Source: a virus. Taken from it: a stretch of 21,876 nt of DNA. This document shows positions 3,864 to 21,698 of this stretch, piece after piece (position 1 is the stretch's first letter; every line of letters starts with the position of its first letter). The DNA lies in IMG/VR virus record IMGVR_UViG_3300044720_000060, positions 1 through 21,876 of that record, one strand, 5' to 3'. The translations under genes and the position numbers were made by a program. The notes under the pieces are model-generated. The model worked only from the letters and a program-made list of their open reading frames with translations, was not told where the DNA came from and made no database searches.

Positions 3864-5423
3864 GTGACGACAGCAGCGCTCCTCGACCGGCAGCTCCTGC
3901 GCGACCCGTGGCTCATGGCTGCGGACGAGCTCGATCCGCCCGCCTTCATGCGCGATCCGGCGCTCTGGGTCTCGGAGCGCATGGGCGAGTTCCTGTGGTC
4001 CAAGCAGCGCGACATCGCCGCCTCGGTGGCGGCGCACCGGCGCACCGCCGTGCACTCCGCGCACGACGTCGGCAAGAGCTTCCTGGCCTCGCGCATCGCC
4101 TGCTGGTGGATCGAGTCGCACCCGCCCGGCGAGGCGTTCGTGGTCTCGACCGCGCCGACCTTCACCCAGGTCAAGGCCGTCCTCTGGCGCGAGATCGGGG
4201 CGGCCCACGAGGACGCCAAGCTGCGCGGCCGGGTGAACCTCACCGAGTGGTACATCGGCCGGCGCCTGGTGGCCAAGGGCTGGAAGCCGGCGGCCGAGAC
4301 GGCGGTGCCCACCGAGCGCGGGGCCTCCTCGGGTAAGGCCGTCTTCCAGGGCATCCACGCCCGCTACGTGCTCGTGATCCTCGACGAGGCCGGCGGCGTG
4401 CCGGCCTCGATCTGGGAGGGCGCCGAGGCCCTCACGACCAACGAGCACGCGCGCATCCTGGCGATCGGGAACCCCGAGGACCCGACCACGCGCTTTGCCG
4501 AGGTCTGCGCGCCGGACTCGGGCTGGAGCGTAATCCACGTCGACGGGCACGAGAGCCCGAACTTCACGCACGAGCAGGTGCCCGAGGAGCTTCGCGACCT
4601 GCTCCTCTCGCCGCGCTGGGCCGAGGAGAAGCGGCAGGAGTGGGGTGAGGACTCGGCGCTCTATGTCAGCAAGGTGCGGGGGCGCTTCCCGACGAGCGCC
4701 TCGGACGGTGTGGTGCCGCTCGGCTGGGTGCGCCGCTGCCAGGCAGATGACCGGCCGGCGGTGATCCTCGACCCGGTCGAGCTCGGCGTCGACGTCGGCG
4801 CCGGCGTCGACCAGACGGTGATCCGCGAGCGCCGCGGCCCCGTGGCCGGGCGAGCCTGGCGCATCCGCACCGCCGACTCCGAGAAGGCGGTCGCGCTGGT
4901 GCTCCAGGCGATCGACGAGTCGGGCGCCGTGCGCGTGAAGGTCGACGTGATCGGCGTCGGCTGGGGCATCGCCGGGCGCCTCGAGGGCCTTCGCCAGGAG
5001 GGCCGCCACACGGCGGAGATCGTGTACGTCAACGTCGCCGAGGCCTCGGCCGAGCCGCACCGCTTCCCGAATCTTCGCTGCGAGCTCTGGTGGGAGATCG
5101 GGCGCCGGCTCTCACAGGACGGCGGCTGGGATCTACGGGCGCTCGACGAGGACACCGTGGCGCAGCTGATCGCGCCGAAGTGGAAGCTCCAGGGCGGCCG
5201 CACGAAGGTGGAGTCCAAGGAGGAGACCAAGAAGCGCCTGCACCGCTCCTCGCCGGATGACGCCGACGCCCTGCTCCTCGCGTTCTACGTGCCGCCGACG
5301 CGGACCGCGCAGGTGCACTCGACGCTCCCCTCCTCGACGCCGCCGGTGACCCGCAAGGGCGACCTGGTGCTCGTGGGCGAGCGCTACCGCGACGCGCCGC
5401 TGAACGGGAACGGGCACCGGTGA
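3864..5423 (+). CDS. terL: terminase large subunit (packaging ATPase/nuclease)
   Basis: From GTG 3864 the protein is 519 residues. It pumps phage DNA into the prohead and cuts it. The ATPase part has a Walker A variant SAHDVGKS (residues 65-72), Walker B VLVILDEA (169-176) and a coupling motif with GNP (202-204). The RNase H-like nuclease part shows LGVDVG (Asp 310), KVDVIG (Asp 361) and SSPDDADALLLAF (Asp 465/466/468), the expected three acidic positions. In-frame starts at GTG 3669 and ATG 3819 exist, but the extension is Arg/His-rich, covers the tandem repeat and does not look like protein. The sequence from TTAALLDRQLLRDPW onward reads as a normal terminase N-terminus. The ribosome-binding site at 3864 is weak, so the start is uncertain. 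Confidence 0.93.
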   Translation: MTTAALLDRQLLRDPWLMAADELDPPAFMRDPALWVSERMGEFLWSKQRDIAASVAAHRRTAVHSAHDVGKSFLASRIACWWIESHPPGEAFVVSTAPTFTQVKAVLWREIGAAHEDAKLRGRVNLTEWYIGRRLVAKGWKPAAETAVPTERGASSGKAVFQGIHARYVLVILDEAGGVPASIWEGAEALTTNEHARILAIGNPEDPTTRFAEVCAPDSGWSVIHVDGHESPNFTHEQVPEELRDLLLSPRWAEEKRQEWGEDSALYVSKVRGRFPTSASDGVVPLGWVRRCQADDRPAVILDPVELGVDVGAGVDQTVIRERRGPVAGRAWRIRTADSEKAVALVLQAIDESGAVRVKVDVIGVGWGIAGRLEGLRQEGRHTAEIVYVNVAEASAEPHRFPNLRCELWWEIGRRLSQDGGWDLRALDEDTVAQLIAPKWKLQGGRTKVESKEETKKRLHRSSPDDADALLLAFYVPPTRTAQVHSTLPSSTPPVTRKGDLVLVGERYRDAPLNGNGHR

Positions 5424-5590: not shown

Positions 5591-7111
5591 ATGGCGGAGA
5601 TCACCTACTCCATCCCCACCGCCACCCCCGGCGCGCAGGAGACCCAGGACTTCCTCGACGCCGCGGCCGATATGGGCGTCGAGCGGCTGGGCGGCTTCGC
5701 CCTCTACGAGCACTACTACGACGAGGGCGGCAAGGTCCGCCTGACCGACCGCCTGCGCTCGTTCCTGCAGGCCTCGGGGCTCCAGTTCGCCGAGAACTTC
5801 TCAGAGCCGATCATCGACTCGCTGGCGGAGAAGCTGCTGGTCACCGGCTTCAACGTCGACGTCGGCGACCAGGCGCAGGCGATGGCCCAGAGCGCCGACG
5901 TCGAGGCCTCGGCCACGATCTCCTCGTGGCTCGGCGACCTCTGGCAGCAGGGCCGGATGGACGCCGAGCAGGGGACGCTGCACACGCAGGGGCTCATCAA
6001 GGGCGAGGCGTTCCTGATCGTCGACTGGGACGAGGGGGCAAAGCGCGCGCGCTTCACGTTCAACCGCCCCGAGGTCTGCCGCGCCCACTACGACGCCGAG
6101 CGCCCGAACGAGCTCGAGTACGTGGCGAAGGTCTGGTGCACCAAGAGGCTCTCCCCCACCAACCCGACCGGGCGCGCGATCGAGCGGCTGAACCTCTACT
6201 TCCCCGACCGGGTCGAGAAGTGGTACCGCGTCCAGGCCGGCGGCAAGGGCGGCTGGGAGCACCACACGGACGACGGCGAGGCCGTCTGGCCGACGCCCTG
6301 GAAGGACGGCGCGGGCAAGCCGCTCGGGATCCCCGTCGTCCACTTCCGCAACAAGCCGCTCGGCAAGCCCTCGGGCCGCTCCGAGCTTCGCGGCGTCATC
6401 CCGCAGGTCGACCTACTGAACAAGCTGGTCGTCGACCTCGCCGCCATCCTTGACTCCCAGGCTTGGCGCCAGCGCTGGGCGACCGGCATCGACGGCGACG
6501 GGTCGCAGTTCAAGAACGTCCCCGGCGACGTCTGGACGAGCTCCAGCAAGGACGCCGGGTTCGGCGACTTCGCCGCCGACGACGCCGCAGGGGTCCTGGC
6601 GGCGATCGACCAGACGCTCAACCGGATCGCCCGTCGCAGCCGCACGCCGCTGCACCTTCTCACCGGCGGCGACATGCCCTCCGGGGAGGCGCTGAAGTCC
6701 GCCGAGTCCGGGCAGACGGCCAAGGCCAAGAAGATCCACGTCGCCTGGGGCAACGGCTGGGAGGACGCGATGCTCTGCGCGCTCCGCCTGACCGAGGCCT
6801 TCGGACGCCTGCCGGTCGAGATCGACCTGGCGCGCATCGTCATCTCGACCGAGTGGGACGACCCGGTCAGCCGCAACGACAAAGAGGAGGCCGAGACCGC
6901 GCTCCTCTACCGGGAGCTCGGCGTCTCCCAGGACACGCTGCTGACCCGCATGGGCTTTGACCCCGAGCACGAGGCCGAGCAGCGAAAGCTCGAGGGCCAG
7001 GGCGCCGACGAGACGCTGGCGCGGCTGCTCGACCATGGCGCCGGCATGGGCGGCACGGCGGTGCCTCCTCCGCCTCCTTCCGTGCCGGCGCTCGCGGGGG
7101 GCGCGGCGTGA
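5591..7111 (+). CDS. portal protein (SPP1 gp6-like)
   Basis: This is a 506-residue protein from ATG 5591, adjacent to the previous stop. Portal proteins form the dodecameric DNA channel at one vertex of the capsid. Recognisable stretches are the N-terminal helices with FAENFSEPIIDSLAEKLL, the long stem-like region RGVIPQVDLLNKLVVDLAAI, and LHLLTGGDMPSGEALKSAE near residue 365, which is characteristic of SPP1-type portals in actinobacteriophages. Length is normal for the family and the position after TerL is standard. The C-terminus is a low-complexity Pro/Gly/Ala tail. The stop overlaps the next start as GTGA. Confidence 0.93.
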   Translation: MAEITYSIPTATPGAQETQDFLDAAADMGVERLGGFALYEHYYDEGGKVRLTDRLRSFLQASGLQFAENFSEPIIDSLAEKLLVTGFNVDVGDQAQAMAQSADVEASATISSWLGDLWQQGRMDAEQGTLHTQGLIKGEAFLIVDWDEGAKRARFTFNRPEVCRAHYDAERPNELEYVAKVWCTKRLSPTNPTGRAIERLNLYFPDRVEKWYRVQAGGKGGWEHHTDDGEAVWPTPWKDGAGKPLGIPVVHFRNKPLGKPSGRSELRGVIPQVDLLNKLVVDLAAILDSQAWRQRWATGIDGDGSQFKNVPGDVWTSSSKDAGFGDFAADDAAGVLAAIDQTLNRIARRSRTPLHLLTGGDMPSGEALKSAESGQTAKAKKIHVAWGNGWEDAMLCALRLTEAFGRLPVEIDLARIVISTEWDDPVSRNDKEEAETALLYRELGVSQDTLLTRMGFDPEHEAEQRKLEGQGADETLARLLDHGAGMGGTAVPPPPPSVPALAGGAA

Positions 7112-10148: not shown

Positions 10149-11099
10149 ATGCCCGCAACACCACAGCATTGGGCGGCGCTCGTCGAGCCTGTCCTCAATC
10201 GGCAGTTCTTCTACGTCGGCTTCGGCGGCGAGGGCAGGCGTCAGTCGCTGCTTGACCGCCTGTTCAACATCCAGACCTCGCAGTACGCCGAGGAGAAGAC
10301 GATGAGCCTCGGCGGCTTCTCGACGCAGGGCTGGAACTTCGAGGACTCGGGCCGCGTGCAGTACGACGAGCGCGCCAAGGGATACGAGAAGACCTTCGCC
10401 CATCACGAGTTCGCCAAGGGCTTCATCGTCACCCGCAGGCTCATGGACGACAACCGCCTCTCGACCGTCTTCCGGGACGCGCGCGAGCTCGGGGACTCGG
10501 CCTTCCGGATGCGCGAGAAGGCCGGCGCCAACGTCTTCGCCCAGGGCTTCTCCAACGCGACGACGGCGACGCTCGACCAGTACGGCACCGACGCGGTCGG
10601 GCCGGATGGGGTGGCGCTCCTCTCCGACGCCCACCCGGCGCCACCCGGCGCCGGCGGCTCCACCCAGTCGAACGAGGGCACGCTGGCCCTGACGGCCGCA
10701 AACCTCGGGACCGTCCGCGCGGCGATGATGAGCTTCAAGGACTACCAGGGCGACCTGCTGAACGTGATGCCGGACACCCTGCTCGTGCCGCCGGAGCTCG
10801 AGGACACGGCGCTCACGATCGTGCGCTCCCAGCAGGACCCGACGAGCGCCAACAACGCCATCAACCCGCAGGCCGGCCGCTTCCAGGTGATCGTCTGGCA
10901 CTACCTCGCGGACTCGAACGCCTGGTTCCTGATCGACTCGTCGCTCATGCGCCAGCACCTTCACTGGTTCGACCGGATCCCGCTCGAGTTCGGCCGCGAG
11001 GAGGACTTCGACACCTTCCAGGCCAAGTTCCGCGCCTACCAGCGCTTCAGCCTGGGCTGGTCAGATTGGAGATTTATTTATGGCGAGAATCCGTCCTAG
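10149..11099 (+). CDS. major capsid protein, HK97-fold, Mu gpT-like
   Basis: This is a 316-residue protein from ATG 10149 with a very strong ribosome-binding site. It is the shell subunit of the icosahedral head. Signs are an N-terminal arm with the long YAEEKTMSLGGFSTQGW segment, FAKGFIVTRRLMDD, helix DSAFRMREKAGANVFAQGF, and the LLSDAHPAPPGAGGSTQSN loop. The later NVMPDTLLVPPELEDTAL and WFLIDSSLMRQHLHWF also match Mu gpT-like capsid proteins of siphoviruses. No delta domain is present, consistent with a separate scaffold gene. The last 12 codons (from about 11062) switch to A/T-ending codons, including AGA, TTT, ATT and TAT, exactly where an antisense endonuclease gene overlaps. Confidence 0.93.
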   Translation: MPATPQHWAALVEPVLNRQFFYVGFGGEGRRQSLLDRLFNIQTSQYAEEKTMSLGGFSTQGWNFEDSGRVQYDERAKGYEKTFAHHEFAKGFIVTRRLMDDNRLSTVFRDARELGDSAFRMREKAGANVFAQGFSNATTATLDQYGTDAVGPDGVALLSDAHPAPPGAGGSTQSNEGTLALTAANLGTVRAAMMSFKDYQGDLLNVMPDTLLVPPELEDTALTIVRSQQDPTSANNAINPQAGRFQVIVWHYLADSNAWFLIDSSLMRQHLHWFDRIPLEFGREEDFDTFQAKFRAYQRFSLGWSDWRFIYGENPS

Positions 11100-11670
11100 T
11101 TATAGCTAGGACCTCGGACCGAGTCTTCAGACCATGACAGTCACCGCAGAGCGCCTGTCCATTGGCCACATCGTTCGTGCCGCCGCGGTGGCACGGCACG
11201 ATGTGGTCGTACTGGAGGCGCTCGGTCGCCCCGCACTGTTCGCACCGGTATCCGGCGCGCTCCAGGATCAGCCGCTTCATGCGATCACTGAACTCCTGGC
11301 CGCGTCGTCGGTTGCGGACCGGGTACCGCTCGGTCCGCAGGCTCACGAAGTAGCAGGCCTGCGAGCAGTAGAGGCGCCCTATGTGACCAAGCACGCACGT
11401 CTTGCCGCAGAGGGCGCAGACCTGCATCGTCCACCCGATCTTGCCGTTCCCACGGCAGGCCATGGAGCAGAAGCGGCGCGCCTCCCAGTAGGCCAGCGAC
11501 CAGTCCCTGTCCTTCTCGAACTCCCGTCCGCAGCGCTCGCACGGCTTGGTCGGCTGATCCTTCAGCTTCGAGCAGCGGCGACCGCAGAAGGTGTTCCGCC
11601 AGTCCTTCGGGACGAAGGTGACACCGCACCGGGGGCATACCTTCGTGCGGTCAAGTCGCGGTCGTCCCAT
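11074..11670 (-). CDS. HNH homing endonuclease with three zinc ribbons
   Basis: This is a 198-residue protein on the minus strand from ATG at 11670. Residues 12-33, 44-72 and 85-106 each have a C-x2-C...C-x3-C zinc ribbon, so there are three in series, probably DNA-binding. Residues 143-182 are a classic HNH domain: CEQCG, then DHIVPCHRGG (D155-H156), N170, and ALCGDCH (C175, C178, H179). The gene overlaps the 3' end of the major capsid gene by 26 bases, and its last eight residues are read from capsid-gene antisense. It is free-standing, not inside an intron or intein, since the capsid gene is intact. Related roles are gene homing and marker exclusion. Codon bias is weaker than in neighbours. 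Confidence 0.9.
   Translation of the reverse strand: MGRPRLDRTKVCPRCGVTFVPKDWRNTFCGRRCSKLKDQPTKPCERCGREFEKDRDWSLAYWEARRFCSMACRGNGKIGWTMQVCALCGKTCVLGHIGRLYCSQACYFVSLRTERYPVRNRRRGQEFSDRMKRLILERAGYRCEQCGATERLQYDHIVPCHRGGTNDVANGQALCGDCHGLKTRSEVLAITRTDSRHK
11093..11112. other. hairpin at the major capsid stop codon and insertion boundary
   Basis: GTCCTAG (11093-11099) and CTAGGAC (11106-11112) pair perfectly over seven bases around the six-base loop TTATAG. No U-tract follows on either strand, so a Rho-independent terminator is not supported. It marks the left edge of the endonuclease insertion and could be part of its target or a fold at the mRNA end. Confidence 0.4.
11095..11100 (+). repeat. 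6-bp direct repeat flanking the first endonuclease (second copy 11706-11711)
   Basis: CCTAGT occurs at the capsid stop codon and again just before the ribosome-binding site of the gene at 11733. Joining the two copies removes 611 bp and leaves capsid TAG, then GGGGAGGTGA, then ATG with normal spacing. The repeat is short, so chance is possible, but its placement is exact. Confidence 0.45.
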
Positions 11671-13951: not shown

Positions 13952-14383
13952 GTGGCCCCGCCCACCGACACGACCGACCAGGTCCGGCTGCTCCTCGGCG
14001 GGCCGGCGACGACGCTGGTCACCGACGACCAGCTCGACTTCTTCCTCGCCGAGGCGGACAACGGCATCTACCTGGCGGCCGCCTCGGCGGCGGAGTTCCT
14101 GGCCGCCTACTACGCCTCCGCGTACTCGTTCGAGACCGACGGCCAGAAGTTCGACCGCAAGACGCTGTTCACGAACTACATGGCTCTCGCCGCGTCATTC
14201 CGCGCCCGCGCTGCTGGGCTCACCGTGGGTCCGGGCGGCGCCTTGATTGGCACGGTCTCCACGATCGACAGCACCCGAGTGGACGGGTTCTCCCAAGATG
14301 TTGCCAATCAGGAGGTCGGGGCAACCGGAACCAACCCGCGGCAGCGCTTCTACACCGTGGATGGAGTCGATTCTCTTCCATGA
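13952..14383 (+). CDS. putative head-tail adaptor (connector) protein
   Basis: This is a 143-residue protein from GTG 13952. The N-terminus, TDQVRLLLGGPATTLVTDDQ followed by LDFFLAEADNGIYLAAASAA, has the helical pattern of the small head-tail connector proteins (gp6/gp15-like) that bind below the portal. Residues 70-95 continue the helical bundle (FDRKTLFTNYMALAASFRAR). The last ~30 codons (from about 14284) contain many A/T-ending codons (CAA, GAT, GTT, AAT, GCA, GGA, TCT, CTT, CCA), unlike the first part. This shift lies against the following endonuclease gene, whose ATG overlaps its stop as ATGA. Confidence 0.7.
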   Translation: MAPPTDTTDQVRLLLGGPATTLVTDDQLDFFLAEADNGIYLAAASAAEFLAAYYASAYSFETDGQKFDRKTLFTNYMALAASFRARAAGLTVGPGGALIGTVSTIDSTRVDGFSQDVANQEVGATGTNPRQRFYTVDGVDSLP

Positions 14384-14880
14384 AGCGCCCCCGTCCCCTC
14401 ATGGAGCGCTTGTGGGAGAAGGTCGACCGTTCTGGCGGCCTTGATGCCTGTTGGCCGTGGACGGCCGGCAAGATGCTCGGCTACGGGCTGATCGGGCTTG
14501 GTGGTCGCGCCGGCGGCAACGACCTCGCCCATCGCGTTATCGCAAAGGCGGCGCTCGGCCCGCCGCCGCCGCGGCATGAGGCGCGCCACCTCTGCGGCAA
14601 CCGCGCCTGCTGCAATCCGCTTCATCTTGCCTGGGGCACCCGCAGCCAGAACGAGGCGGACAAGCTTGCGCATGGACGTTCGAATCGTGGTGAGCGGCAC
14701 GGCCTCGCAAAGCTGACGGAGGCCGACGTTCACGAGTTGCGACGGCTCGCCTGGTCCGGCGTCAGACACAGCGAGATCGCCCTGCGCTTCGGTGTCTCCA
14801 CGGCGTGCATCCGAGACGTCCTTGTCGGTCGCCGTTGGGCTTGGCTGACCACCGACCGAGAGGGGGTGATGCCGTCGTGA
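14380..14880 (+). CDS. HNH homing endonuclease (HNH_3 type) with C-terminal HTH
   Basis: This is a 166-residue protein from ATG 14380, overlapping the adaptor stop as ATGA. It starts with the family-typical CWPWTAGKMLGYG (residues 24-36). AHRVIAKAALG (50-60) follows, then the HNH core HLCGNRACCNPLHL (70-83; His 70, Asn 79, His 82) and WGTRSQNEADKLAHGR. Residues 107-152 form a helix-turn-helix (KLTEADVHELRRL then HSEIALRFGVSTACIRDVL), a common DNA-reading tail in phage homing endonucleases. Of the four endonucleases here it is the only one in the same direction as the operon. The next gene starts in its stop as GTGA. Collapse of the flanking TGAAGC repeats would fuse adaptor stop and glycosyltransferase start as ATGA. 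Confidence 0.92.
   Translation: MKRPRPLMERLWEKVDRSGGLDACWPWTAGKMLGYGLIGLGGRAGGNDLAHRVIAKAALGPPPPRHEARHLCGNRACCNPLHLAWGTRSQNEADKLAHGRSNRGERHGLAKLTEADVHELRRLAWSGVRHSEIALRFGVSTACIRDVLVGRRWAWLTTDREGVMPS
14381..14386 (+). repeat. 6-bp direct repeat flanking the second endonuclease (second copy 14878-14883)
   Basis: TGAAGC occurs at the endonuclease start and again at the glycosyltransferase start. Removing one copy plus the 497-bp intervening DNA would give an ATG start for the glycosyltransferase, overlapping the adaptor stop as ATGA, the usual junction of this genome. Short repeats can be chance, but the reconstruction is exact. Confidence 0.45.
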
Positions 14881-19120: not shown

Positions 19121-19489
19121 GTGCTCGCCCTGTCTGCCGGAGAGCTTGTGACGATGCGCGTGGAGCTCGAGCAGACGCTGCCCGGAACCGCGATCATCTC
19201 GCCGCGCACGCTGCTCCTGGACGGGCAGGGCGGCGAGACCTGGAGCTACGCGGCCGGCGGGACATTCCCGGCGCGTCTGTCGCCGGAGTCCTCGCTTCGT
19301 CAGGCGGAGGCCGTAGCTGCAGGCCGGGTCGCCGAGATGTCGTCCTGGATGCTGACGCTCCCCGCCGGCACGCTCATCACCGAGACCGACCAGGTGCTCT
19401 ACGACGGGGTCACCTACGAGGTCAACGAGGTGATGACGCGGGTGCCGTGGGAGCTGTCGCGCCGGTGTCGGCTCACGGAGCTCGACTGA
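19121..19489 (+). CDS. head-tail stopper-like protein
   Basis: This is a 122-residue protein from GTG 19121, three bases after the previous stop. The pattern is a helix-strand N-terminus with VTMRVELEQTLPGTAIISPR and then SYAAGGTFPARLSP. The later stretch, SSWMLTLPAGTLITETDQVLY, is followed by DGVTYEVNEV. It matches small SPP1 gp16-like / DUF head-tail joining proteins, which close the portal after packaging. Size and location (before the neck protein) agree. The assignment is by overall pattern, not a single diagnostic motif. Confidence 0.75.
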   Translation: MLALSAGELVTMRVELEQTLPGTAIISPRTLLLDGQGGETWSYAAGGTFPARLSPESSLRQAEAVAAGRVAEMSSWMLTLPAGTLITETDQVLYDGVTYEVNEVMTRVPWELSRRCRLTELD

Positions 19490-19815
19490 TGGCCATGACC
19501 GTCTCCGTCACCCGCACGAGCCGCATCCCGGCGGTGACCGCGGCGGTGCTCGCGAAGGCGGCGCTCGTCGTGACCAAGGCCGCCATGGACATCGAGGCTC
19601 ACGCCAAGGACCGCGCGCCGGTGGACACCGGGTTCCTCAAGAACTCGATCGCGGCCAAGAAGGTCGGGGCGTTGTCCTGGGAGGTCGAGGTCCACGCCTC
19701 GTACGGCGTGTTTCAAGAAATGGGCACGAGATTCCAGCCCGCGCGCCCGTATTTTATTCCGGCAATCGAGCTGGTTCGGCCGTCGTATCTCGCTGCGATG
19801 AGAACGGTGGTGTGA
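19489..19815 (+). CDS. HK97 gp10-like neck / tail-completion protein
   Basis: This is a 108-residue protein from ATG 19489 (TGATG overlap). Residues 34-55 (DIEAHAKDRAPVDTGFLKNS) are the diagnostic gp10 helix and loop, and YGVFQEMGTRFQPARPYFIP near 72-91 is the family C-terminal motif. It forms part of the head-tail interface ring. The last ~33 codons (from about 19713) change to A/T-ending codons (TTT, CAA, GAA, AGA, TAT, ATT, GCA), although the protein sequence stays normal. The antisense endonuclease gene overlaps the last 62 bases. Confidence 0.88.
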   Translation: MAMTVSVTRTSRIPAVTAAVLAKAALVVTKAAMDIEAHAKDRAPVDTGFLKNSIAAKKVGALSWEVEVHASYGVFQEMGTRFQPARPYFIPAIELVRPSYLAAMRTVV

Positions 19816-20620
19816 GGCATGGCGCAAGCCGATGTTCCAGACGATGTTTGCGCGCGGAGGCGAACGCCCAATGGGTCAGCTCGATGAGAGGCATGCCGTG
19901 CTCGCGGTAGCGCTCCAGTTTCCACCGTTTCCGCTCGGTGTAGCGGCGGTTGTGGGTGACTCCCCAGATCTCGATGTACCAGCCGTTCGCGAGGAAATCT
20001 GCGCGGAAGCGTCGATCGAACGGAAGCCGAGGATCGTAGACATGCGCGACTCCGTGCTCCGAGAGCCAGTCATCGACCCACTGCTCGTAGGTCGAGCGCA
20101 CGACATGCCCGTCATTGCAGGTTCGCTGCTCGCGCCAGCCAGGGTGACGGCGAGGGATGCCGTGCTCGTCCATGAGCTTCTTGATCGGCCCTGCCGAGAC
20201 GCCGTGGCGCCTGCCGATGTTGATGATCGACTCTCCATGGACGAGGTACGCCTCGCGAAGTTCTGCCTCGGTTGGAAGCAGGGGCACGTGCCCCCCTCGC
20301 CGTGTCATCCAGACCGTGGAGGACGGGATTCCGAACTTCTTCAGCCAGTAGGCGACGGCCGTCAAGTCGACGCCGTAGAGCGCACCGATTGCCGCGAGCG
20401 AGCGGTGCTCCACATGGACGAGCCGCTCCAAGTCCTCGGCCCGCATCGGCTCAAGGCCCCTCGCGGCCAGTCCCTTGCCTTTGGGCCGCGGTGGGATTCC
20501 GTACTTCCGCATCCAGCGCAGCACGTGTGTCTTGCTGACGCCGAATCGCTTCCCGATCTGGCGAGTCGTCAACCCGTCGTCGATGTACAGGCGGGCAAGC
20601 TCGTCGCGGTCGGGCGTCAC
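19754..20620 (-). CDS. homing endonuclease, triple HTH plus PD-(D/E)XK/Vsr-like nuclease domain
   Basis: This is a 288-residue protein on the minus strand with a GTG start at 20620. Three repeats of about 56 residues, each a helix-turn-helix, lie at 7-44, 63-100 and 119-156. Each ends in a KYGIP/KFGIP/EHGIP segment. They are probably DNA-reading units. Residues 173-250 form a nuclease-like domain: VVRSTYEQWVDDWLSEHG (Ser 176, Glu 179), FRADFLANGWYIEIWG (Asp 208, Glu 217). The E-x-K lysine is replaced, as in some Vsr-like homing enzymes. The last ~22 residues are read from gp10-gene antisense and probably are not part of the fold. The gene sits between neck and tail-terminator genes and is free-standing. 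Confidence 0.82.
   Translation of the reverse strand: MTPDRDELARLYIDDGLTTRQIGKRFGVSKTHVLRWMRKYGIPPRPKGKGLAARGLEPMRAEDLERLVHVEHRSLAAIGALYGVDLTAVAYWLKKFGIPSSTVWMTRRGGHVPLLPTEAELREAYLVHGESIINIGRRHGVSAGPIKKLMDEHGIPRRHPGWREQRTCNDGHVVRSTYEQWVDDWLSEHGVAHVYDPRLPFDRRFRADFLANGWYIEIWGVTHNRRYTERKRWKLERYREHGMPLIELTHWAFASARKHRLEHRLAPCLTPPFSSQRDTTAEPARLPE
19828..19834 (+). repeat. 7-bp direct repeat flanking the third endonuclease (second copy 20646-20652)
   Basis: GCCGATG occurs shortly after the neck-gene stop and again at the tail-terminator ATG. Joining them deletes 818 bp and puts the tail-terminator ATG 16 bases after the neck stop. The first copy is inside the present endonuclease frame, so residues after about 265 would come from host-gene DNA. 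Chance cannot be excluded. Confidence 0.4.
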
Positions 20621-20627
20621 GTGCCAA

Positions 20628-20633
20628 ATTATA
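20628..20633 (-). promoter_or_regulatory. TATAAT -10 element, probable leaderless promoter of the endonuclease at 20620
   Basis: On the minus strand a perfect TATAAT ends seven bases before the GTG start, leaving no room for a ribosome-binding site. In actinobacteria TAnnnT at this distance is the hallmark of leaderless transcription. No strong -35 match was seen. It lies in otherwise G+C-rich DNA, so it stands out. Confidence 0.65.
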
Positions 20634-20649: not shown

Positions 20650-21060
20650 ATGAACGTCATGGACGTCGCCATCTACAACGCGCTGGCCGGCTCGACGGCG
20701 CTCACCACCGCGCTCGGCGGCACTGCCATCTTCCAGTGGCTCGCCCCCGAGAACCGCAACCCGCCCTACGTCGTCTACAACAAGCAGGCCGGCACCCCGA
20801 TCCACACCTTCGGCGGCGTGGCGATCGAGAACGACCTCTACACCGTGCGCGGCGTGACCATCGGCCCCTCGGCCGTCGCCGGCGGCACGATCGCGAAGCT
20901 CATCAACGACGCCCTCGCCGACCGGGCGCTCACCATCACCGGCTACACCCACCTCTACCTGCGCCGCGTCTCGGACGTGGACTACCCGGAGGTCGTGGCG
21001 GGGGTGCGTTTCTACCATCGCGGTGCGATGTACCGCGCCATGGCCGATCCCGCCGGCTAA
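20650..21060 (+). CDS. tail terminator-like protein (DUF3168 type)
   Basis: This is a 136-residue protein from ATG 20650. The pattern IYNALAGSTALTTALGGTAI, PPYVVYNKQAG, LYTVRGVTIGPSAVAGGTIA and a final beta segment matches the DUF3168 / gpU-like tail terminator proteins that cap the tail at the head-proximal end. Length is normal for the family. It lies between the neck protein and the tail tube, the standard place. The upstream ribosome-binding site is weak, possibly because the endonuclease insertion altered the leader. The 3' end overlaps the next endonuclease gene by four bases, tail to tail. Confidence 0.78.
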   Translation: MNVMDVAIYNALAGSTALTTALGGTAIFQWLAPENRNPPYVVYNKQAGTPIHTFGGVAIENDLYTVRGVTIGPSAVAGGTIAKLINDALADRALTITGYTHLYLRRVSDVDYPEVVAGVRFYHRGAMYRAMADPAG

Positions 21061-21698
21061 TGCTTCTTCGGCCCCCAACGCGCGAGCGCTCCCTTCCTCC
21101 CGGCCTCGGCCATCCGAGCGCGCGTCTCGGGGCTGTAGGTCCAGGTCTTCCGGTCGTGCTGGGCCAGGTGCTCGGCGGTGCCCGCGTAGACCTCCAGGTT
21201 CTCGGGCCGGTTGTCGTCCTTGACGCCGTTGCGGTGGTGTACGTGTTCGGTGGGAAGCAGGAGGCGTCCGAGCTTCTCGGACATGACGAGACGGTGCTCG
21301 GGGGCATAGCCGCTGCGCTGGGCCATGGGGTGGCCAGGGCACCACACCATCACGTAGCCGCCCGAGGTCAGGTATCGGCCACCGCGCCAGCGCGGACAGT
21401 CGGGACCGATGGCGCGCCCTCGGGGGCTGTGTCCGCGCAGGTAGGGCACCGGGTGGCCGCGGAAGTGGCGCCGCTTGCGGCGCGTCGTCGTGACCAGCGG
21501 GGTCGGCTGACCGCAACCGCATTCGCACATTCCGCTCGGGATCTCGTCCCTTGTCGGCTGGTATGCCCCCCGGTGGGGCCGGCCCTCGCTTGCCGCGAGT
21601 CGCACGTGATGGCCGGGAAGAAACCGCGCCGGTTTGCGGCGCCGCGGGTTGTCAGGGATCGGCTCTCCGCAGCCGCATTCACACAACGGTCTGTCCAT
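21057..21698 (-). CDS. HNH homing endonuclease with two Cys-rich N-terminal motifs
   Basis: This is a 213-residue protein on the minus strand from ATG 21698. Two similar short motifs, CECGCGEPIP (6-15) and CECGCGQPTP (58-67), each followed by a basic R-F-x-x-GH segment (FLPGHH, FRGH), are probably metal-binding DNA contacts. Residues 108-177 are an HNH domain: RYLTSGGYVMVW, EHRLVMSEKLGR (His 135), HVHHRNGVKDDNRPENLEV (His 154/155, Asn 167) and AEHLAQH. The C-terminal YSPETRARMAEAGRKG is a NUMOD-like DNA-binding tail. Its stop overlaps the tail-terminator stop by four bases. No clean flanking repeat was found for this one. Confidence 0.9.
   Translation of the reverse strand: MDRPLCECGCGEPIPDNPRRRKPARFLPGHHVRLAASEGRPHRGAYQPTRDEIPSGMCECGCGQPTPLVTTTRRKRRHFRGHPVPYLRGHSPRGRAIGPDCPRWRGGRYLTSGGYVMVWCPGHPMAQRSGYAPEHRLVMSEKLGRLLLPTEHVHHRNGVKDDNRPENLEVYAGTAEHLAQHDRKTWTYSPETRARMAEAGRKGALARWGPKKH

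Follow-up and report, generated by a model that had tools for sequence, protein, structure and literature searches.

We observe that a free-standing endonuclease gene, lying on the minus strand of a viral genome and antisense to its late genes (positions 20620 to 19754, 288 amino acids), has a perfect TATAAT hexamer directly ahead of its start codon, and comparison with related loci indicates that the gene probably has its own leaderless promoter. The window, i.e., the whole stretch of DNA that was analyzed (21,876 nucleotides), is one whole IMG/VR record, with nothing beyond it. Its minus strand reads TTCCAGG TATAAT TTGGCAC GTG ACG at this place, with TATAAT at 20633 to 20628, followed by seven nucleotides and then GTG at 20620 to 20618, exactly as the preliminary description had it. 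Based on the spacing from the −10 element, the predicted first base of the transcript is G at 20620 or C at 20621. As an explanation of the data as a whole, we consider an endonuclease-owned leaderless promoter, imported with the homing gene, to be probable.

TATAAT occurs just once on the two strands of this 70% GC window, compared with a mean of 0.07 copies in shuffled windows (at least one copy in 6 of 100 shuffles). The looser pattern TANNNT-N7-RTG is also found once, at the same place, versus 1.96 expected by shuffling; since shuffles expect about two, this pattern alone is no evidence, and the weight therefore rests on the perfect hexamer and on the relatives, in which the −10 element is kept. 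At a spacing of 16 to 18 bp, no −35 element giving a −35/−10 pair of 9/12 was found in the window, and not even a 3/6 match within such a pair. The preliminary description was also right in reporting no ribosome-binding site before this GTG, the best four-base match to a Shine-Dalgarno sequence being AGGT at −16, a site shared in part with the −10 region; several late genes have Shine-Dalgarno sequences of six to seven bases (8987, 10149, 11733, and 12244). GTG 20620 is the earliest ATG, GTG, or TTG in its frame, and family matches of the endonuclease begin at residues 1 to 9, for which reasons we regard this start codon as sound.

With respect to its genomic setting, the gene is an antisense insert between two tail genes, at the junction of an HK97-gp10-like gene (19489 to 19815, plus strand) and a gp17-like tail completion gene (20650 to 21060, plus strand). 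It overlaps the last 62 nucleotides of the former tail-to-tail (19754 to 19815), and its start lies 29 nucleotides from that of the latter, its divergent neighbor. A promoter for the gp17-like gene within the same 29 nucleotides was rejected, since no TAnnnT is read in that direction; this gene has no Shine-Dalgarno sequence at its start. The other two minus-strand endonucleases of the window overlap the stop of the preceding late gene by 26 nucleotides (capsid) and 4 nucleotides (gp17-like), and the sole sense-strand HNH gene (14380 to 14880) shares 4 nucleotides with the end of the gene before it. Between 14862 and 18993, glycosyltransferase-like proteins and an NAD-dependent epimerase-like protein are encoded amid head and tail genes, as judged by eye.

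The predicted protein combines three helix-turn-helix (HTH) units (residues 5 to 40, 61 to 96, and 118 to 152; positions 20608 to 20165), presumed to bind DNA from the model and the Pfam match (HTH_28), with a nuclease domain (residues 176 to 274; positions 20095 to 19799) whose I-Bth0305I/Vsr-like fold is assigned from structure matches of the model. This AlphaFold2 model (14 family members) has a mean pLDDT of 83.5 and a pTM of 0.44. The best solved structure matching the nuclease domain is the catalytic domain of I-Bth0305I (Foldseek E = 0.01, probability 1.00; VIA Z = 10.9, rmsd 2.5, 94 residues), followed at Z of 8.0 to 9.1 by mitoribosomal proteins, a putative Neisseria endonuclease-like protein, TnsA, and Vsr. 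I-Bth0305I, an EDxHD enzyme, is like the window protein in catalytic fold and, according to its description (PMC3943268), in being multidomain with DNA-binding parts, whereas identity is only 15%, the HTH repeats of the window protein are N-terminal, and the likeness is one of fold. E179, D208, and E217 are invariant in all 14 aligned family rows. Pfam and NCBIfam see HTH domains only and leave the C-terminal domain unnamed, and the PHROGs matches to the HTH part are named HNH endonucleases. Going by the model, the gene is likely to be a free-standing homing endonuclease gene, putative as to cleavage.

Scanning of viral contigs, together with one scan of bacterial genomes, added 14 distinct members that include the 5′ end, 31 to 53% identical to the window protein where aligned (13 alignable), in loci that, across the family, range from 40 to 71% GC. 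In all 15 loci, window included, the endonuclease runs opposite to the flanking late genes seen. The downstream neighbor matches the HK97-gp10 family in 10 of the 11 loci scanned (9 above the Pfam cutoff), with L011 as the exception; those of L033 and L126 are gp10-like by eye, and L034 lies elsewhere among tail genes. In most relatives, the endonuclease thus sits at the gp10 3′ end, L013 being cut off in that part. We dropped L008 (upstream DNA and protein the same as in L007), L009, L036, L118 to L125, and L127 to L129 (same contigs as earlier loci), and L004 (a C-terminal fragment without the 5′ end), and excluded L013, which is broken by a run of N, from the alignment and tree. The endonuclease start was set at ATG 4989 in L033 and is uncertain in L006, where AGGAGG-ATG is present in another frame. 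The L004 fragment (5920 to 6303), which encodes the nuclease part without the HTH repeats and lies antisense between a tape-measure gene and another tail gene, is likely a decayed endonuclease copy. Among named isolate phages, the endonuclease matched Haloarchaeal virus HJTV-4 only, over the HTH part, and the gp17-like protein of the window matched none; plasmids gave six partial matches.

A −10-like element is present upstream of the endonuclease in all 15 distinct members, matching at least 5/6 in 13 of them and 4/6 in the other two. The element stands seven nucleotides before the start codon in the window (TATAAT-7-GTG), L032 (TAGAAT-7-GTG), L033 (TAGGAT-7-ATG), L035 (TTGACT-17-TATATT-7-ATG), and L126 (TATAAT-7-ATG), six before it in L007 (TAGAAT-6-ATG), L010 (TACAAT-6-ATG), and L013 (TATGAT-6-GTG), and nine before it in L012 (TTGACA-17-TATAAT-9-ATG). 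Promoters with leaders are predicted in L002, L003, L005, L006, and L034 and, less clearly, in L011 (TTGACC-17-TATTGT). Leaderless geometry is predicted in all six loci of at least 68% GC and, among the seven loci of 47 to 58% GC, in L126 only, and the two loci near 40% GC are leaderless or nearly so; the lower-GC members therefore comprise two with the 6- to 7-nucleotide geometry, a third that nearly has it, and six with leaders. The lower-GC relatives have stronger promoters at the same place, and no conserved −35 element was found in the high-GC members, where only L032 gets to 9/12. In L011, a long hairpin with a T run, like an intrinsic terminator in a leader, lies immediately before the endonuclease ATG (4370 to 4445), with attenuation as a possible role.

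In the six high-GC loci, which were found via the protein but for which the pattern was picked after they had been viewed, TAnnAT stands 6 to 7 nucleotides before ATG or GTG at 6 of 3,929 codons on both strands, all six being endonuclease starts (0 of the 3,923 other codons). A stricter 5-of-6 rule finds five of the six endonuclease starts and no other codons. When each locus's own 60 upstream nucleotides are shuffled, the chance of TAnnAT in place is 0.2 to 0.9% per high-GC locus (0.7% in the window, where these 60 nucleotides are 52% GC). Each case taken singly is weakened by local AT-richness, which does not account for all six together, and the single odds are far less striking than the pooled ones. 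Furthermore, −35/−10 pairs of at least 9/12 are found upstream in 10 of 15 loci versus 0.64 expected, and pairs of at least 10/12 in 7 of 15 versus 0.10 expected.

In the eight members with 6- to 7-nucleotide spacing, the 13 bp immediately upstream of the −10 element have an identity of 0.514 (0.261 when shuffled), whereas the stretch 31 to 70 bp before it is unconserved (0.271 versus 0.265); the conserved part in these leaderless members is only about 20 bp. The 13-bp block abuts the −10 element in most members (Gibbs score of 93.3; 25 shuffles with a mean of 70.6, a standard deviation of 2.1, and a highest score of 74.0) and was not found in the window, L012, L034, or L002. It is a weak motif, with left-one-out ranks of 1 to 24 in nine loci and of 109 in L013 among 10,000 to 26,000 positions, L005 being taken in a register chosen by eye. 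Since these 13 bp are conserved and the more distant flank is not, the promoter core looks to have been kept by selection and not to be a residue of recent descent, though the window is without the block.

Microcystis phage MinS1 (L117, MZ923504.1), a relative of L007 that is ~71% identical to it over the gp10 region, is without the endonuclease gene. At its junction, 2 nucleotides separate the gp10 stop from the next start, and TAnnAT does not occur within ~100 bp of it, so the predicted L007 promoter sits within the inserted stretch. The idea that the 13-bp block copies the homing site was rejected, as the block has no standout match at this empty junction. In L007 (4932 to 4976), the insert offers GGAGG on the late strand upstream of the start of the following tail gene. 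MinS1 is 71.7% GC in the stretch seen, and the GC content of Microcystis is much lower; given this GC content, its host label may be worth a check. For the window itself, no close relative lacking the gene at 20620 was found. In the tree, the high-GC leaderless members cluster (support of 89/86), with the window basal, and the leaderless state takes three changes in all, just one inner branch being well supported. Since the high-GC members group together, their leaderless cases may descend from one ancestor.

The preliminary description had attributed leaderless promoters of their own to the other two minus-strand endonucleases as well. The relatives, together with the one that lacks the gene, speak for such a promoter at the gene at 20620; for the other two, comparison lends the claim no comparable support. 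TACGCT and CATGCT do stand eight bases before ATG 11670 and ATG 21698, as it had said, each only 3/6 identical to TATAAT by hand count. For the HNH gene at 11670 to 11074, no usable −35 element was found upstream and no relatives were found (four stretches matched, none of them a relative), leaving a promoter role for TACGCT (11684 to 11679) unsupported by comparison. An inverted repeat, GTCCTAG-CTATAA-CTAGGAC (11093 to 11112), lies where the end of the capsid gene meets that of this HNH gene. The HNH_3 gene at 21698 to 21057 is a recent insertion for which an own promoter is possible, with a weak candidate, TTGAAC-17-CATGCT (21735 to 21707), 8 nucleotides before its ATG; its two best relatives have good promoters, but leadered ones. 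These relatives (L037 at 2449 and L038 at 2455) have TGC-TATAAT and TGG-TATCAT, with leaders of 31 to 34 nucleotides, opposite tail tube genes.

Relatives of this HNH_3 gene were found at 80 loci, 58 distinct rows of which were classed as antisense or sense by a crude gene caller. At a GC content of at least 0.55, and counting only members whose two strands differ by 150 codons or more, a −10 match of at least 5/6 is seen in 5 of 10 antisense versus 5 of 19 sense cases, as hand counted on these crude classes; L113, L115, and L105 look leaderless and antisense, as single cases picked out of the list. L014, which is 96.8% and 90.6% identical to the window on either side, is without the insert and shows an empty site (21057 to 21698 set against L014, 285 to 317). 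Strong divergence is seen beside the insert (start of the tail tube gene and end of the gp17-like gene), and identity is 90 to 97% farther away, a pattern as co-conversion would leave.

In the explanation that we favor, the endonuclease gene would have brought in a promoter of its own, with TATAAT as its −10 element. Host RNA polymerase carrying the main sigma factor would initiate at GTG 20620 or one base earlier, and the resulting leaderless mRNA would need no Shine-Dalgarno sequence, allowing a homing gene that lies backwards at its insertion site between gp10 and gp17 to be expressed without the late promoter and, as the preliminary description had proposed, presumably independently of the late operon. 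Its further proposal, of transcripts running antisense to late genes, holds with certainty for no more than the 62-nucleotide gp10-like overlap, and there only if the gene is transcribed. Since the host polymerase would read a TATAAT-type promoter at once after entry, expression may be early. The HTH-plus-nuclease protein would then cut this junction in a co-infecting phage without the gene, and repair would copy the cassette over. The comparison supports the start codon, the −10 element with its position and conservation, the antisense setting, the insertion, and the nuclease fold; what we infer is transcription itself, use of the main sigma factor, early expression, cleavage, and homing.

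An incidental TATAAT in an AT-rich intergenic stretch, the gene being silent or driven by a promoter far away, as supposed for T4 segD, would fit the 52% GC of the upstream 60 nucleotides with their 0.7% chance by local shuffling, the loose pattern expected about twice in the window, the missing −35 element, and the assumption in a T4 review that the antisense segD is hardly transcribed (PMC2988022). We nevertheless hold this to be improbable, given that TAnnAT is found in six of six high-GC loci and at no other start codon there, that the lower-GC relatives have stronger promoters at the same place, and that the core is conserved next to unconserved flanks. It is also conceivable that the −10 element is real and expression tightly held down, the upstream block serving chiefly as an operator or as part of the homing site, bound by the HTH repeats so as to repress the gene. 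The block's position against the −10 element in most members (Gibbs score of 93.3; identity of 0.514 versus 0.261), the three HTH units, and the I-TevI precedent of repression at its own promoter, as given in the T4 review (PMC2988022), would agree with this, whereas the lack of the block in the window and three relatives, its weakness as a motif, and the empty MinS1 junction without a standout match do not, and we think it rather unlikely.

That the protein is instead an HTH regulator or defense nuclease, encoded by a cargo gene with its own promoter, would be in line with Pfam and NCBIfam seeing HTH domains only. The I-Bth0305I catalytic domain as the best fold match, the three invariant acidic residues, the HNH endonuclease names that PHROGs gives to the HTH part, and the presence or absence of the gene at one junction, as with mobile genes, make this very improbable. 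A broader form of the imported-promoter explanation, which we put forward tentatively and with some doubt, is a self-contained cassette inserted backwards at the gp10 3′ end in phages of very different hosts, with a core of ~20 bp (the 13-bp operator-like block plus the −10 element), early expression by host polymerase ahead of the late transcription coming from the other side, self-repression through the HTH repeats, and a leader set by the distance of the start codon from one ancestral promoter; the self-repression is a guess by analogy.

Among known systems, segD is, according to the T4 review, the only T4 homing endonuclease gene that does not run in the direction of its neighbors; the T4 genes either borrow phage promoters or use middle and late ones, and no endonuclease-specific promoter is early (PMC2988022). 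segD is like the window gene in being a free-standing homing endonuclease gene antisense between late virion genes; it is of the GIY-YIG class, with no promoter found and transcripts thought to be vanishingly low, whereas the members of the window family each have a predicted host-type promoter. I-TevI, reported there to repress its own promoter in T4, is like the window gene in combining an adjacent promoter with a DNA-binding part able to repress, and differs in its sense orientation inside an intron, its T4 late promoter, and its Shine-Dalgarno sequence. In mycobacteriophage Corndog (PMC4351075), gene 53 runs leftward in the structural operon from a predicted leaderless SigA-like promoter, PL2; compared by description, it resembles the window gene in its backward placement and its predicted SigA-like promoter and leaderless mRNA and differs in being annotated as a putative DNA-binding protein, not a homing endonuclease. 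In Mycobacterium tuberculosis (PMC3898074), 73% of primary starts have TANNNT centered 7 to 12 bp upstream, no −35 consensus was found, and leaderless genes make up 26% of those with a primary start; the window gene is similar in its −10 element close to the start and lack of a −35 consensus, whereas those genes are cellular with mapped starts and the window gene is a phage gene with a predicted one. In the titles and abstract openings searched, we recognized no description of this combination, an antisense homing endonuclease gene with a leaderless promoter of its own.

With respect to the host, one endonuclease relative sits in a metagenome-assembled genome (MAG) of Propionicimonas, which we take to be an actinobacterium. 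A draw of 396 actinobacterial genomes gave nine with some match at 1e-10, only this MAG being strong, and a second draw gave the same MAG again (1 of 391 at 1e-30). The best records listed for the window terminase are a human-feces phage (42.7% identity) and then Streptomyces and Arthrobacter phages (36 to 38%). An actinobacterial host for the window phage is plausible.

If the favored explanation is true, antisense homing genes would be expressed, probably early, and the promoter would be part of the mobile unit. This contrasts with the T4 review, which treats segD as near-silent for want of a promoter (PMC2988022). For high-GC phages, the finding suggests a search rule, namely TAnnAT 6 to 7 nucleotides before a start codon opposite late genes.
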